This document shows, in pieces, positions 1,521 through 22,060 of a stretch of DNA of 31,826 nt; within the stretch, counting starts at the first letter, position 1, and each line of letters opens with the position of its first letter. Under the pieces are notes generated by a model. The model was given only the letters and a program-made list of their open reading frames with translations. It was not told where the DNA came from and ran no database searches. This DNA is from a virus: positions 1-31,826 of the IMG/VR virus record IMGVR_UViG_3300013006_000088; one strand, given 5' to 3'. The position numbers and the translations under genes are program-made.

Positions 1521-4500
1521 TGGCATTAGACCCGAACACCGCAGCATCTCTTGCTCAAGCATACGAGCAAGGTGACTTTGACCAAGTAAATAATATCTTG
1601 GGTGGCGGGGGCATTAGTGCAAACGATGTTCAAAGTTACTTTAACTTTAACAAATCTCAGATGTCGGATTTAGGAAGCGCTGGAATTAACTTTGCGCCAG
1701 CTCCTACAGAAATTGATTATTTTGCGCAACAGTTTGCTCCAGATAGTTATGCTGACGTTTTATCTGCTGTATCTGGTGGTGGGGGGTCTGTTTTAGAAGA
1801 TACCTCAACTTTTAATGATAGTGGAGCCACTGCTGTCTACCAACCGCCAGAAACGTCAACTGGGTTCAAGGCTTCTGGAAGCTCTGGTGATTACGAGGTT
1901 GAGCCTCCTCCGCCGGAAGACCCCACAAAAATAACCCCCCCGCCCATCCCTATTCGTACTTTTACGGATACCGTTAAGACCCCTACCGGAATAGCGTCTT
2001 TACCTATTACAAACACGGTGGCTGCGGCTGCAACTACGCCAAATAAACCCTCAGACACAGACATTGTTAAGTTTCTTACTGATAACCCAAAAATAACCGA
2101 TGCAGAAATTGCTAGGATTATGGATAGCACTGGGTTAAGACCAGAAGATATTGCACGAGCCACAAACAGTAAAGTAGAAGATGTAACCGCTAGGTACGAG
2201 GCAGTAACTCCAACTGCGCCCGCTGCACCCGCCGCTCCTACAACTACGCCTGCTAGTGCTGTTACTCCACCAGCAGACACTACTGCCGCATCCGACAAAA
2301 TAAAACAACAAATCCTTGGTCAAGGCATAACCAGCAAATGGTCTGGTGAAGGGTTTGGCTCGGCTGAAGCCAATGCTGCGGATATGGCTAAGATCATGGC
2401 CGGAATCGGTATCACAGACATTAAACAGTTTGGTAGGGTTCCTATTCTTGAACAAGCCGTAGTGAAACAAGGTTACAACGGTCAAGCCGCTCAACAAGAT
2501 GAAGATGGTAACTACTTCATTGTTCAACCTTCTGGTGAGTATGACAGTGAAGGTAATCAGATTTCTACAAGAGTTAATGTAGATCCATCTAAATTAGAAA
2601 AAGTATACGGGACTTACCAAAATTTAAGCGGTAACCCTGAAGAAGTTTCAAGTTTTGTTGCTGTTGACCCATCTAAAGTAATTACAAAAGATGGCGTGTC
2701 AATGGTTCAAACCGGCACTACTTTTGGCAATAAAGAAACTGGTCAAGCTGTACCAAACACTTATAGCGAACGCCAACAAGGAAACTTCTTTGGTGGAACC
2801 TTTGCGGGTAAAGGTAACACTGGCTATGGTGTCCAGTTTGATGCGCAAGGTAACCCCATCTTTTACACACAAGGCGCGTCCTCAAATGACCTAGCCAACA
2901 TCATGAAGGATCTGGGCCCTATTGGGCAGATCGGCTTGGCTATTGCAACTGGTGGTTTATCTATCCCACAGCAGATTGCCGCGAACATGGCAATTCAAGT
3001 GCTCAGTGGTAAGGATATTGGTGATGCCATAAAAAGTGCCGCAATTAGCTTTGCAGGTTCTCAAATTCCCGGCATGGATTTTATGTCAGATGGTGCTTCG
3101 TTTATTAAAGACCTTGGCCTATCACCTGATCTTACAAAAACCTTAACCAGTTCTTTCCAAAATGCCGCAGTCTCTGCTGGTACTGCGTTACTTAGTGGGC
3201 AAGATGTTGGCGAAGCGATGATTCGTGGTGCTACTACTGGCGGTGTTAACGGCGCTGTTAACTCTTTATTAGGTAACATTGAAGGGTTTGGAGATCTAAC
3301 TGCTAACCAAAAGAAAATAGTTACTAATGCCGTAACTGGTGTAATTTCAGGTAAACCTTTAGATCAGATTGTTATTAACAGTGCTATTGCCGCAGCTAAT
3401 AATGCCGTTAAAGAAGCAAAAACAACTAATGTTTCTGACGGTTCAGATGTAATTAGTACATTACAGAATGCTGGATTAACTGAAGATCAATTGGCTGATG
3501 CAAATTTATTTGGAACTGGTGAAAAGTTAACAGTATCTGCTGATGCTCAAGGTATTATTGATGAATTAGCCGCTATTAAACCTGATGAGTTAGCTTTTGT
3601 TGGGCCTGCTTCTGGACTTGGTAGTGCCGCTGCAACGCAAACTGCCGCATTGTTACAACGTGCTGCCGCTACTCCAGCGGGGCAAGAGGCTTTAAGACAG
3701 GCCGCTACTGTTAGTACTACTGTCCGTGATGCACTCATAGCTTCAGGTGTATTTACTGCCGCTGGCTTAACATCTTTTATTGCTGGTAATCAATTAGTAC
3801 CGGCTAAGATTAATACTGTTACTCAAACTACCAACAGTGATTTAGTAAATCAGATTCCTACTGACACTATTGCGGGTATATTAAATAAGACTGTTACACC
3901 CACAACAGCAGTTCAGACCGCAACAGTACAACCTAATACACAAGTAGCTACTACAGCACCAACTACTTATGTAGTACAGCCCGGTGATTACACAGATACC
4001 ACTGAAGTTGTCCAACCTTGGCAGTCAATAAACCCAACAACTCAAGTAGCCCAGCCTGATGCCAGTCGTTTCGCCTCTATGCTTGGAGTAAATGTAGATA
4101 CTGCGACTAATTTATTAAGAATATATCCCTCATTATTTGGTGAGGATGAATCATTTACACCTGCTGATATTGAGAAAATGACGAGTACAGATATTCGTCT
4201 AATGCAGAGTGCTGGTGGTGGAGCAGACGATAATATTATTACTCAGAAACCTTCTAATAATACTGTTGTTGCTAGAGATTCTGAAGGTCAGCCAATTACT
4301 TATGGTGATTTAGTTAATATTATTGGAAGTAATAAAGTTACTACTCAGCCTACTGTTCAAGCTACAACTACAACGCAGCCAACAGTTACAGTAAGTCCAA
4401 CAACATCACCAACTGTAACTACAGAAGCTACAACTTCACCAACCGCAACTACAAGAGCTACAACATCGCCAACTACGTTTATTACTACAGAGGTTACAAC

Positions 4501-5537: not shown

Positions 5538-6596
5538 ATGGATGATTATGGACAAGACTTTGGTTACAGCGATACCACAGAAGAGATCCCTAGCTGGATG
5601 GGTGGCAACCGAGAACTGGAAACTGGAAACTGGTACTCTGGTTTAAATGAAGCCAACTCAGGTACTAACCTTGAGTCAATGGCTGGTTACACATTTAAAG
5701 ATGGAGTATGGACTTCTCCACAGGGACTTACTTTTGATACAAAAACTAATACAGGATCATTAGCCGACCTCTTTAAAAATGGTGGAATTGGCAGTGTATT
5801 AGGTATTGCGGGAGCTGCTGGTTTAGCTCAACAACTAATGGGCGGTAGCGGTGGTGGTTATGCAGGATATCAAGGTGGTATACCCAGATACACAGCCCAG
5901 CGTACCCAATATGCTTTACCAGTTACACCATTACCTGCTGATCAGCGAGCTAAAGTAACTGACGCATCTATTAAAAACTTTGTAAATCAAGAAGGTTTGG
6001 GTGCTGATCGTGTAGCCAGAGCTATGGTCAAATATGGCATTACGCCTGAACGCATGGCTGGAATTACTTCTTTGCCAGTAGCTGACATTGCAAGTAGATA
6101 CCGTGAAGCTCTTGGCCCTAACCAGTCTCTGGCTAATCCAATTTATGGAACGCCTGGTCGTCGTCCTGGATCTGGCGGTATTACATACTTTAGTCCTATG
6201 CAGTACAACGTTGTTCCTACTGTTGCTCCTACAACTGTTCCAACTACAGTAGCAACTGAACCCACAACTCAACCTACAGTTGTAGCGGCTGGTGGTGGAA
6301 TGATGCATGGTGGCATTTCAAGTTTGGGAGGATACTCCGATGGTGGTCAGTTATTGCGTGGCCCTGGAGATGGTGTATCTGACAACATCCCTGCAACCAT
6401 TGGCAACAAACAACCTGCCCGTCTTGCTGATGGTGAGTTTGTTGTGCCTGCTCGTATTGTTTCTGAACTTGGTAATGGTTCAACCGAGGCAGGAGCACGT
6501 AAACTCTATGCCATGATGGATCGTATTAAGAAGACACGAGCCAAGGCTAAAAACATTGCAGCTAATACCAAAGCTGATAAACATCTTCCCGCTTAA
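5538..6596 (+). CDS. Virion protein with C-terminal DGEFVVPA module (352 aa)
   Basis: Starts one base after the upstream stop, with AGGGAG 9 bases before the ATG. The middle (about residues 140-196) repeats the helical module of the preceding large protein. Next comes a short Thr/Pro/Val linker like the Thr tract upstream. The C-terminal 90 residues carry a module I recognise from aquatic phage virion proteins: GPGDGVSDNIPATIG, then ARLADGEFVVPARIVSELGN, then GARKLYAMMDRI. A basic tail follows (KKTRAKAKNIAANTK). The function of this module is unknown to me. The gene order and shared module suggest it assembles with the 1338-residue protein. No signal peptide is visible; Gly-rich segments at about 95-125 could be membrane-active. 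Confidence 0.7.
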   Translation: MDDYGQDFGYSDTTEEIPSWMGGNRELETGNWYSGLNEANSGTNLESMAGYTFKDGVWTSPQGLTFDTKTNTGSLADLFKNGGIGSVLGIAGAAGLAQQLMGGSGGGYAGYQGGIPRYTAQRTQYALPVTPLPADQRAKVTDASIKNFVNQEGLGADRVARAMVKYGITPERMAGITSLPVADIASRYREALGPNQSLANPIYGTPGRRPGSGGITYFSPMQYNVVPTVAPTTVPTTVATEPTTQPTVVAAGGGMMHGGISSLGGYSDGGQLLRGPGDGVSDNIPATIGNKQPARLADGEFVVPARIVSELGNGSTEAGARKLYAMMDRIKKTRAKAKNIAANTKADKHLPA

Positions 6597-20322: not shown

Positions 20323-20350
20323 GTGGCTCCGTAACTGGGGCCACTTTTTT
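20323..20350 (+). terminator. Rho-independent terminator after VRR-NUC
   Basis: GTGGCTCC, a 6-base loop, then GGGGCCAC (8 pairs, one wobble), followed by six Ts. It lies 62 bases after the VRR-NUC stop. Confidence 0.8.
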
Positions 20351-20393
20351 CAGAGGCAATACACATGAGTATCTGGACGCTGAAACGTAAGGC

Positions 20394-20550
20394 GGACTAA
20401 CCTAGAAGCGGGAAGCCACAGTACACGCGGTCACTGTGGTAGCAAGACAGGGAAAAAGGTACTCAGTTGTGTTGGTGGTAAGCGGGTTAGCGCCGCGCGT
20501 TGTTCCTTAGTTCGGTTTTAACGCCATCACTGCTTCATGTGCCCACCAAC
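20394..20550 (+). ncRNA. Structured RNA element A (no gene before the nuclease-like ORF)
   Basis: The 211 bases between the terminator and the next ATG (20561) hold no convincing gene but several helices: CCACAGT/ACTGTGG (20416-20422 with 20433-20439); GTTGGTGG/CCACCAAC (20471-20478 with 20543-20550); and a hairpin GCGG-loop-CCGC at 20482-20496 with loop GTTAGCG. The segment CACTGCTTCATGTG (20528-20541) and this loop recur in the same order in element B near 21242-21325, where the paired arms have different sequences but still pair. An upstream part (GGACTA, GAAGCG, GGAAGCC) also recurs at 21363-21391. It resembles a tRNA D-arm but has no T-arm, so it is not a tRNA. It may be a leader of the downstream gene or a separate RNA. 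Confidence 0.5.
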
Positions 20551-20560
20551 AATCTCATTT

Positions 20561-21070
20561 ATGAACACAGAAGACAAACTAGCGTGGTGTGAGCAGGGTG
20601 AGCATGATGAGGCAGTGTTTGCTGTCAGTAGGCTATTCCAACTTGGTTTGGCTGGCCACATCAATCCGGAGAAGCTTACAAATAAATACACCCACGACCT
20701 GTTCGTACAGTTTAAATCTGACCTCAAGACAGTCAGGACTCCTCTCTTTAAATCCCAAAAGCTTTATGGTATAGACCCCCAGTATGCGGTGACCTTTAAC
20801 CTCAAGGATGGTGAGCGGTACGCCAAGCTATACCCCAATATTGTTGTGATCTTTGATGTTAAGTGGGAGCAAACGAGGATGGAGATAGGCGGTCAGGCGT
20901 ACCAGGTCAAGCCTATGCACGAGACTTACGCAGGGTTCTTGAATGACATCCGTAAGGCTATCATGAAGGGTGGTAATAAGAAGATCGAGTACGCCAGAAG
21001 GGTTGATGATGTCAGTGGTAATGCCAAAGCCAGTTGGGTATTTGATGTTAGGTTGCTACAAAAATTGTAA
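20561..21070 (+). CDS. PD-(D/E)XK nuclease-like protein between RNA elements (169 aa)
   Basis: I prefer the ATG at 20561 (MNTEDKLAWC). An in-frame ATG at 20537 lies inside the conserved CACTGCTTCATGTG of the upstream RNA element. Neither start has a Shine-Dalgarno sequence. Residues fit a restriction-nuclease fold: E17 in DEAVFAVSRLFQLG, D46 in YTHDLFVQF, and D54-L-K56 in KSDLKTVRTP. The remainder (DPQYAVTFNLKDGERYAKLY; NAKASWVFDVRLL) is mixed alpha/beta. I recognise relatives only as unnamed phage proteins, so the nuclease call is an inference from spacing of the acidic and Lys residues. It is flanked by structured RNAs on both sides and separated from the VRR-NUC gene by a terminator. Confidence 0.6.
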   Translation: MNTEDKLAWCEQGEHDEAVFAVSRLFQLGLAGHINPEKLTNKYTHDLFVQFKSDLKTVRTPLFKSQKLYGIDPQYAVTFNLKDGERYAKLYPNIVVIFDVKWEQTRMEIGGQAYQVKPMHETYAGFLNDIRKAIMKGGNKKIEYARRVDDVSGNAKASWVFDVRLLQKL

Positions 21071-21079
21071 GTAAGGTAT

Positions 21080-21109
21080 TGACACAGACTGATACTGTTT
21101 GATATATTC
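21080..21109 (+). promoter_or_regulatory. Strong promoter of a small RNA
   Basis: A perfect -35 TTGACA (21080-21085), an 18-base spacer and TATATT (21104-21109). Transcription would start near 21116, 10 bases after the preceding gene's stop begins the promoter, and no gene starts downstream on this strand before 22149. Confidence 0.7.
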
Positions 21110-21115
21110 CGATTC

Positions 21116-21236
21116 GTTACTGTTGCGAGTGACAAGTTAAGGCCACTTATGGCTATATTCCGCTTTACCTAATGCTTTCGGTAGGAGAGTCATTAGGCAA
21201 GGTCGCAACCGGAATGTAGCCTTAAGTGGCTTTTTT
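21116..21236 (+). ncRNA. Small structured RNA with own promoter and terminator
   Basis: A roughly 120-base transcript is bounded by a consensus promoter and a T6 run (21231-21236). Its core is a 21-base arm at 21143-21163 that pairs with 21210-21230 (19 Watson-Crick positions of 21). This is followed by a 7-base bulge on the 3' side and an inner stem CCTAATG/CATTAGG (21169-21175 with 21191-21197), extended by about four more pairs. The apical loop (21176-21190) contains GGTAGGAGAG, the same ten bases that form the ribosome site of the VRR-NUC gene. There is no ORF of note. Possible roles are a decoy for an RNA-binding protein or a regulator of early mRNA; alternatively it may be only an elaborate terminator with a promoter in front. 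Confidence 0.65.
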
Positions 21237-21241
21237 GTTAT

Positions 21242-21325
21242 GGGACTGGGACTGTGCAGTGGGTTAGCTCCACTGTGACGGTAAATGTTTTGAAAACACT
21301 GCTTTATGTGGGCAGTCTCAGTCTC
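21242..21325 (+). ncRNA. Structured RNA element B, paralogue of element A
   Basis: A closing helix GGGACTGGGACTG (21242-21254) pairs over all 13 positions with CAGTCTCAGTCTC (21313-21325), using two G-U wobbles. Inside are the hairpin CAGTGG-GTTAGCT-CCACTG (21257-21275), a small TGTTT/AAACA hairpin at about 21285-21297, and CACTGCTTTATGTG (21297-21310). The loop and last segment match element A (6 of 7 and 13 of 14 bases), while the helices differ in sequence but are kept as pairs, which is the mark of a conserved RNA structure. Confidence 0.5.
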
Positions 21326-21607
21326 TCCTACAGTAACTTGTCCCAAGGTTCTATCGGGTTTTGGACTAGCATGAGGGAAGCGTTGGAAGCCGAAAGGTGT
21401 AGAGCGCAGTCCACTAGTTCTACTACGTTCTTACTTGGGGCGAGAGCGCATAAGAAGATGCAAGCGCAAATGGGGGAGATGCCAGTAGTGTCCGTGGTTC
21501 GTTTCTGCGGGTGGCGGTACTGGTTCAGGCGACCATGCTAGACGAGGTTACTCTCGGAAAGCGCCTGATGGGGTGGATAAGTAATTACTTCTACCCCCAC
21601 CGGACAC
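21326..21607 (+). other. Gene-free, helix-rich stretch downstream of element B
   Basis: No convincing gene on either strand over 282 bases. Helices visible: GGACTAG/CTAGTTC (21363-21369 with 21414-21420, one wobble); CCAGTA/TACTGG (21482-21487 with 21518-21523); GTGTCCGTGG with CCA-c-CGGACAC (21488-21497 with 21597-21607); CAGGCG/CGCCTG (21526-21531 with 21562-21567); CGAG/CTCG (21543-21546 with 21553-21556); and a long hairpin centred on AAGTAATTACTT (21570-21597). The 3' arm ends exactly at the stop codon of the sigma-like gene. Possibly the rest of a roughly 370-base RNA with element B, or a replication origin. Confidence 0.4.
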
Positions 21608-22060
21608 TCAGTCAGTGGCTCCGTGGTGTAAAGTCTGCCAAGGGATTTGTCGTCCCTTAGGCAGAGCCATGTTCACCGAAGCCTTGTCGTCCACCATAGT
21701 GTAAGCCTTCCTGCGTAGTTTTCTGATAGCTTTGTCGTGGATCTGGGCGATCCTGGTGTAAGTTCGTTTAAAGCACCACCCGATCTCTGTAAAGTTTAAG
21801 TCCATGTAGTAATACATGAAGATGACTGACTCTTCTCGGACTGAGAGGACTCCTCCCTCTCGGTTTACGAGGTACATCCCATCCTTGATACTTAGTAGTT
21901 TGGTGATCAAGTCTCTATCCTCTACCCCTTCGAGGTCTGGTTCAGCAAAGCTAAAGCCGAACTCTGGCAGGGGTGGGAGTTCATCATTTCGTGTGTACCA
22001 GATATCTCTTATTCTGTGATCTAGACTTTTAATCTTTAACTTCCCATACATTGATGTCAT
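21608..22060 (-). CDS. Sigma-70 region 4-like transcription factor (150 aa)
   Basis: Residues 71-120 read VLSVREESVIFMYYYMDLNF, then TEIGWCFKRTYTRIAQIHDK and AIRKLRRKAY. This is the region 4 pattern of sigma-70 factors: LPxREExVI, a helix-turn-helix, RVxQIxxKAxRKLR. Region 2 motifs for -10 melting are absent, so it is not a complete sigma factor. It may bind -35-like sites with host polymerase, as small phage sigma-like or antitermination proteins do. The gene stands alone with its own promoter, facing away from the early operon; AGGAAA precedes the ATG. Confidence 0.75.
   Translation of the reverse strand: MTSMYGKLKIKSLDHRIRDIWYTRNDELPPLPEFGFSFAEPDLEGVEDRDLITKLLSIKDGMYLVNREGGVLSVREESVIFMYYYMDLNFTEIGWCFKRTYTRIAQIHDKAIRKLRRKAYTMVDDKASVNMALPKGRQIPWQTLHHGATD

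Follow-up and report, generated by a model that had tools for sequence, protein, structure and literature searches.

Two short segments on either side of a gene in a linear IMG/VR virus record of 31.8 kb, analysed here over its whole length and referred to as the window, resemble each other in loops and helices, which raises the question of whether they are copies of one structured RNA and what such an RNA might do for the virus.

Two related elements in the window

Element A (20470..20551, plus strand) is closed by helix P1, whose strands TGTTGGTGG (20470–20478) and CCACCAACA (20543–20551) pair in sequence and in the predicted fold. Within this helix lie the P2 hairpin GCGG-GTTAGCG-CCGC (20482–20496; loop GUUAGCG, 20486–20492), a variable insert (20497–20527) and the P4 hairpin CAC-TGCTTCAT-GTG (20528–20541), with its loop UGCUUCAU at 20531–20538. 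Element B (21242..21325, plus strand) is predicted to have the same organization, with P1 formed by GGGACTGGGACTG (21242–21254) and CAGTCTCAGTCTC (21313–21325), the P2 hairpin CAGTGG-GTTAGCT-CCACTG (21257–21275; loop GUUAGCU, 21263–21269), an insert at 21276–21296 and a P4 hairpin at 21297–21310 with loop UGCUUUAU (21300–21307). Taken alone, element B folds better than 200 of 200 shuffles (z -3.9) and element A is marginal against its shuffles (z -1.8). These window-only statistics are modest, and the reality of both elements is settled by their relatives elsewhere. The initial annotation of this DNA had described a hairpin loop and an ATGTG segment shared by A and B inside a closing helix; that description is borne out with slightly shifted coordinates, and comparison of sequences confirms A and B as two members of one structured-RNA family, termed T1.

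The T1 family

T1 RNAs are approximately 90 nt in size and are composed of the closing helix P1, a hairpin with the loop GUUAGC(G), a variable insert and the hairpin CAC-UGCUUYAU-GUG. Relatives were retrieved from the viral collection with the pattern GTTAGC-N18..46-ACTGCTTYATG, which gave at least 120 matches; most of the matches listed are unmistakable members, with closing helices that are completely unlike in sequence and still pair. A covariance model (R1), the check suggested in the initial annotation, was built from 69 such sequences and finds many homologues with covariation. It scores element A at 62 bits and element B at 66 bits, and separates true members, which lie above 42 bits with one shorter match at 29 bits, from chance pattern-only loci at about 15 bits. 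In a second scan only the second loop and its flank were fixed, and the matches listed are a lower bound, as they are for the first pattern. After structural filters the family comprises at least 197 members in at least 187 loci, nearly all of them IMG/VR viral contigs, with a few Burkholderiales genomes. Since these contigs are fragments, T1 copies per genome are minima. Members were first found through their loops, so loop conservation is inflated, a bias answered in part by the chromosomal copies retrieved with the model and by scans in which loop positions were left free. The existence of the family and its structure are near certain.

T1 is a previously uncatalogued RNA family, absent from Rfam. 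At gathering thresholds Rfam 15 gave zero matches in the window and only tRNAs in 16 related loci, and the relaxed search gave chance-level matches only, in agreement with the earlier statement that no named RNA class matches. BLAST of the window region and of one array against cultured phages and plasmids returned nothing meaningful, and the literature searched, consisting of open-licence papers, holds no description of T1; an earlier description elsewhere is possible.

Helix covariation and a loop–loop contact

Across 94 distinct rows of the T1 alignment, 87% of pair cells are standard and both sides have changed in 23 of the 27 pairs. None of 500 shuffles was as good as the alignment and no slid register came close, which upholds the view that helices differing between A and B yet remaining paired reflect selected structure. 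P4 is likewise compensated, CAC/GTG being replaced by CGC/GCG in L106 and by CCC/GGG in L138. The junction and the insert vary in both length and sequence.

The two conserved loops were then compared with each other. When the fourth base of loop 1 was required to be changed and the matching position of loop 2 was left free, five contigs were retrieved, and all five combine GUUGGCG with UGCC(C/G)CAU. The reciprocal scan, with the fourth base of loop 2 required to be changed and loop 1 free, returned the same five contigs and a single match (L258) with an uncompensated loop 2 change, which is without a proper P2/P4 setting and was taken as chance. Two of the five (L253 and L256) are near-identical, which leaves about four viral instances of the loop double change; the identical change is carried by L149, a chromosomal copy that the model retrieved. 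In the retrieval based on loop 2 only, GUUAGCG is present in 98 of 98 structured members listed, many of which come from one phage lineage and are not independent. This A-U to G-C covariation between the loops, beside invariant G-C and C-G partners, indicates a kiss between AGC and GCU. It supports a model in which the loops GUU-AGC-G and U-GCU-UYAU pair with each other, which would produce a compact knotted domain. The kiss was absent from the original proposal and is a tertiary contact added here. The loop residues GUU and UYAU stay unpaired in this model and are nearly invariant, and the helices are free in sequence.

Position at predicted transcription starts

With the first base of P1 as reference point, sigma70-like promoters were scored; all promoters and terminators given here are predicted. 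A sharp peak was obtained in which the -10 box ends 5–7 nt upstream of P1. Of 94 upstream-nonredundant members, 25 have P1 starting at the predicted +1, compared with 0–4 in equal windows further upstream and a random rate of 2%; these 25, which do not include A or B, present a helix from the predicted +1 onwards and lack an unpaired 5′ overhang. Among the members away from a start site, 23 of 113 come after another array module and 17 of 113 after a T-run; A follows a module described below (module X) and B a pseudoknotted terminator. Predicted terminators reach their highest density, 0.39 per kb, in the 500 nt preceding members and are scarce downstream (0.02–0.13 per kb), which fits a location at the head of a transcription unit.

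At the operon border of the largest lineage, in two distantly related cultured phages, unrelated 16- and 9-bp hairpins also start at a predicted +1, each with a predicted promoter (Xanthomonas phage Xp15, L272, 2855–2915; Acinetobacter phage Effie, L276, 2850–2885).

Gene contexts and hosts

T1 heads early, replication, terminase and non-coding units, and its downstream genes are varied and form no regulon; gene names are from translations read by eye, except where a family search was used. The commonest context, between a SNF2-type helicase gene and a small conserved gene, accounts for approximately 100 of 192 loci, a share raised by the second pattern, which favoured that lineage. Elsewhere T1 precedes a Cro-like gene (L025, with a Cro-like context also in L092), lies between a Cro-like gene and a downstream replication-like gene (L113 and L014) or precedes terminase genes (L098 and L052). 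No partner gene common to every context was found among the loci compared. What follows most viral copies is either a gene with a ribosome-binding site or additional RNA modules.

A scan of 84,980 species genomes with the pattern gave six contigs, belonging to Curvibacter, Achromobacter dolens, Variovorax, two beta-proteobacterial/Burkholderiales metagenome-assembled genomes (MAGs) and one MAG labelled Armatimonadetes. R1 found T1 in 4 of 349 genomes of the Curvibacter family; in a draw from the class of Curvibacter, matches beyond Curvibacter were weak (22–27 bits), and the four examined were all without the family loops. T1 was not found in the parts searched of Xp15, Rollin, Effie, a Rhizobium phage, Pan3 and one spring-water phage. 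As far as seen, T1 is a feature of phages and a few Burkholderiales genomes. That its carriers are mostly viruses of freshwater bacteria is a guess based on the initial annotation and a few MAG names rather than on sample metadata. The T1 copies in sequenced Burkholderiales strains (Curvibacter, Achromobacter and Variovorax) make experiments possible.

One bacterial chromosome holds three T1 copies (L146, L150 and L151), at least two of which (L150 and L151) have nearly identical domains. Each of the three is followed immediately by a terminator-like hairpin, giving the appearance of compact stand-alone RNA genes.

The gene between A and B

The open reading frame (ORF) between the elements (20561..21070, plus strand; 169 aa), which lies outside the RNA family, had been taken for a likely PD-(D/E)XK nuclease gene, and the ensemble for a possible RNA–nuclease element or mobile unit. 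Searches of the ORF against Pfam and PHROGs gave no match and a PDB sequence search nothing significant; a fold search with its AlphaFold model (pLDDT 68) was equally empty at E ≤ 0.001. The nuclease assignment gains no support from any of these searches; a D-x7-DLK stretch (D46, D54-L-K56) is compatible with PD-(D/E)XK, a motif picked out by eye in an alignment only. The one gene flanked by two copies in the window is what such a unit would look like, but elsewhere the gene between paired copies is exchanged or absent: L035 and L121 have a glutaredoxin-like gene in this place, and in L019, L087 and L110 the paired elements are approximately 260–320 nt apart, leaving no room for a gene. Relatives of the ORF exist, mostly with no T1 nearby, and no one nuclease gene was found to accompany the RNA pair consistently. 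P1 differs between the copies, so there are no matching ends of the kind a mobile unit would have, and no TnpB match was found in the window. An RNA–nuclease or mobile unit is accordingly very improbable.

Possible functions of T1

Our preferred reading, to which we assign a probability of about 40%, is that A and B are cis-acting, knotted leader RNAs that protect and insulate phage transcription units. Comparison across the family shows that a P1 of free sequence encloses the two hairpins, that loop pairing makes them a compact knotted domain, and that in many members P1 begins where transcription is predicted to start. Stems at the 5′ terminus slow decay by RppH and RNase E. With a 5′ end that is the first base of a helix and a domain locked by the kiss, we infer that T1 would shield the transcript from 5′-end-dependent decay of the RppH/RNase E type, or would do so for the leading folded module where it belongs to a longer non-coding array; the unpaired GUU and UYAU would probably be recognized by some host or phage factor. 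Counting against this model, many members, A and B included, lie away from a start site, and the degree of loop conservation greatly exceeds what a simple protective stem would require.

Those same features, invariant loops and internal copies, suit a recognized element, and T1 may possibly, if doubtfully, be an antiterminator resembling put, a folded nascent RNA that stays on RNA polymerase through its conserved loops and renders the enzyme resistant to pausing and to termination, chiefly by Rho, across phage operons that are long or untranslated. In HK022, putL lies near the early promoter and putR after cro, and put RNA is described as having a pair of stem-loops together with a 5′ duplex and a triplex in the minor groove (PMC9378689). 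Like put RNA, T1 is a phage nascent RNA of approximately 70–90 nt with two stem-loops, located downstream of early promoters and sometimes present in two copies per genome. A position after an early promoter or cro is matched by the start-site peak, where promoters are predicted, and by L025, L092, L014 and L113, the last two reproducing the order of a Cro-like gene, the element and a replication gene; T1 is also placed before terminase genes (L052 and L098) and at the head of untranslated arrays, as an antiterminator might be. On the other hand, intrinsic terminators are not enriched downstream, A and B come after terminator-like hairpins and not before them, and R1 gave no match to the HK022 genome at E ≤ 10. 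Unlike put, for which no such design is reported (PMC9378689), T1 is enclosed by P1 and held by a loop–loop kiss, and its antitermination is putative. The comparison with Xp15 and Effie and the lack of terminator enrichment favour protection over antitermination; the internal copies and invariant loops favour a recognized element, for example a put-like one, over a plain stem.

The near-invariance of unpaired GUU and UYAU beside helices free in sequence would also be expected of an operator, at which an RNA-binding protein of host or phage origin, or else a small molecule, would dock and control the transcript in cis. We consider this unlikely, as no gene family adjoins the element in all contexts, the variable junction and insert leave no metabolite pocket evident, and the downstream genes form no regulon. 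A metabolite riboswitch in particular was rejected, the insert and junction offering no conserved pocket and the downstream genes being diverse. Less probable again is a trans-acting small RNA, in which promoter, domain and terminator would constitute a separate RNA able to titrate or mimic some host component: the terminator-like hairpins directly after the domain in L146, L150 and L151, and a T-run after P1 in L139, are consistent with it, but most viral copies continue into a gene bearing a ribosome-binding site or into further RNA modules.

Several known RNAs share parts of the T1 design. The 5′-terminal protective stem-loops of bacterial and phage mRNAs likewise present a helix from the first transcribed base before varied genes, whereas T1 adds two conserved loops that pair, a three-helix enclosed fold and internal copies. 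Kissing-loop riboswitches of the purine class also have two loop-paired hairpins inside P1; unlike these, T1 has a long variable insert between the hairpins, no conserved junction pocket, no consistent regulated pathway and no Rfam match. GOLLD and the other ornate non-coding RNAs known from phages and lake samples are structured phage RNAs, and some T1 copies have downstream of them a long RNA of broadly this type, but T1 is only about 90 nt and, apart from tRNA, the window and 16 related loci had no Rfam match. T1 adds an uncatalogued RNA family of at least 187 loci with a tertiary contact backed by covariation, and its start-site position permits a direct test of whether a bare RNA fold protects phage transcripts or steers host polymerase.

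Neighbouring RNA modules

An intrinsic-terminator-like hairpin with a T-run (20323..20350, plus strand), in an arrangement also present in L035, lies upstream of module X, a predicted closed RNA module directly 5′ of A (20359..20472, plus strand). The 3′ closing strand of module X abuts and overlaps the 5′ P1 strand of A, and the module contains the block GGACTA-GAAGCG-GGAAGCC (20394–20417) and a hairpin, GCCACAG..CTGTGG. Module X (GCGGACTAACCCAGAAGCGGGAAGCC...TGGTAGCAAGACGGGGAAA) is kept in nine other contigs (L278–L283 and L285–L287), in which the closing strands have changed and are still complementary; in eight of the nine, T1 was not found in the fetched stretch. The initial annotation had reported this second block as shared by the regions of A and B. 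The colinear chain observed was equalled in 3 of 300 shuffles, and a scan with the block returned module X in the nine contigs and two unrelated matches, whereas the region downstream of B never turned up in another copy. This part of the description is half confirmed: the repeat of the block beyond B was not reproduced, and the block upstream of A belongs to the separate RNA module X, not to T1. A TnpB guide RNA, considered for module X on account of its GAAGCGGGAAGCC and hairpin, was rejected: Cas12f1-like_TNB (PF07282) is unmatched in the window's record, which is possibly a fragment.

Upstream of B, a sigma70-like promoter identified by eye (TTGACA, 18 nt, TATATT; 21079..21108, plus strand) would run into a pseudoknotted terminator-like element (21122..21236, plus strand) and B. 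In this element GTTGCGA (21122–21128) is complementary to TCGCAAC (21203–21209), an outer helix is formed by 21142–21149 and 21223–21230, and a T-run (21231–21236) ends 5 nt before B. Complements of 7 nt with other sequences occur at similar offsets elsewhere (GTCGTAG/CTACGAC, GTGGAAC/GTTCCAC, GTAGTGA/TCACTAC and more), and the arrangement of promoter and pseudoknotted terminator is also found in L007, L032, L037, L042, L090, L110, L115, L117, L125 and L139. It probably represents a second RNA family.

In related loci the pseudoknotted terminator is followed by a long (approximately 300–400 nt) conserved untranslated sequence, often CCGTACTCCGCACGATAGCAAG... and in another flavour CAGCCGTCAGAGCGCGTTAGC... 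(L115, 2463–2790; L125, 5689–6020; L139, reverse from 3924; L049, reverse from 3895; and others). The untranslated region downstream of B (21330..21600, plus strand) occupies the corresponding place in the window and is a candidate homologue. The long sequence has no Rfam match other than tRNA in the loci scanned; that of L049 contains a tRNA-like insert (Rfam tRNA, 33.7 bits), and L042 has two tRNAs just upstream.

Elsewhere T1 is found within arrays of closed RNA modules, where helices of the forms CGCATGGGGAYTG..CAGTCCCCAGCCGTG and GTTGGTGG..CCACCAAC alternate and enclose different inserts, including T1, AATAGGAAACCT..GGGAGAACCCAGTC and others (L008, reverse 3760–4360; L014, reverse 5700–6250; L012, 1450–1850). 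These arrays are modular, putatively structured non-coding RNA loci, and they suggest that much intergenic sequence in these phages is modular structured RNA missed by protein-based annotation. One might tentatively picture, as a possibility less likely than not, a new class of phage nascent-RNA device in which a loop-locked knot at +1 would have host RNA polymerase or RNA-decay enzymes as its direct targets and would be combined with closed modules (X, T2, T3 and others) in interchangeable arrays heading early, late and non-coding transcripts.

Inside an RNA array, upstream of position 5001 in L125 and likewise in L126 and L127, a sequence ending in GGTCGCGGGTTCGATCCCCGTCTCCAACA resembles the 3′ half of a tRNA and has an unusual 5′ half; ARAGORN reported zero tRNA on L125. 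In the window, a small gene on the minus strand (21608–22060) is convergent with the B transcript; its protein carries a sigma-70 region 4 domain (Pfam E 5e-8) and could be a phage transcription factor.
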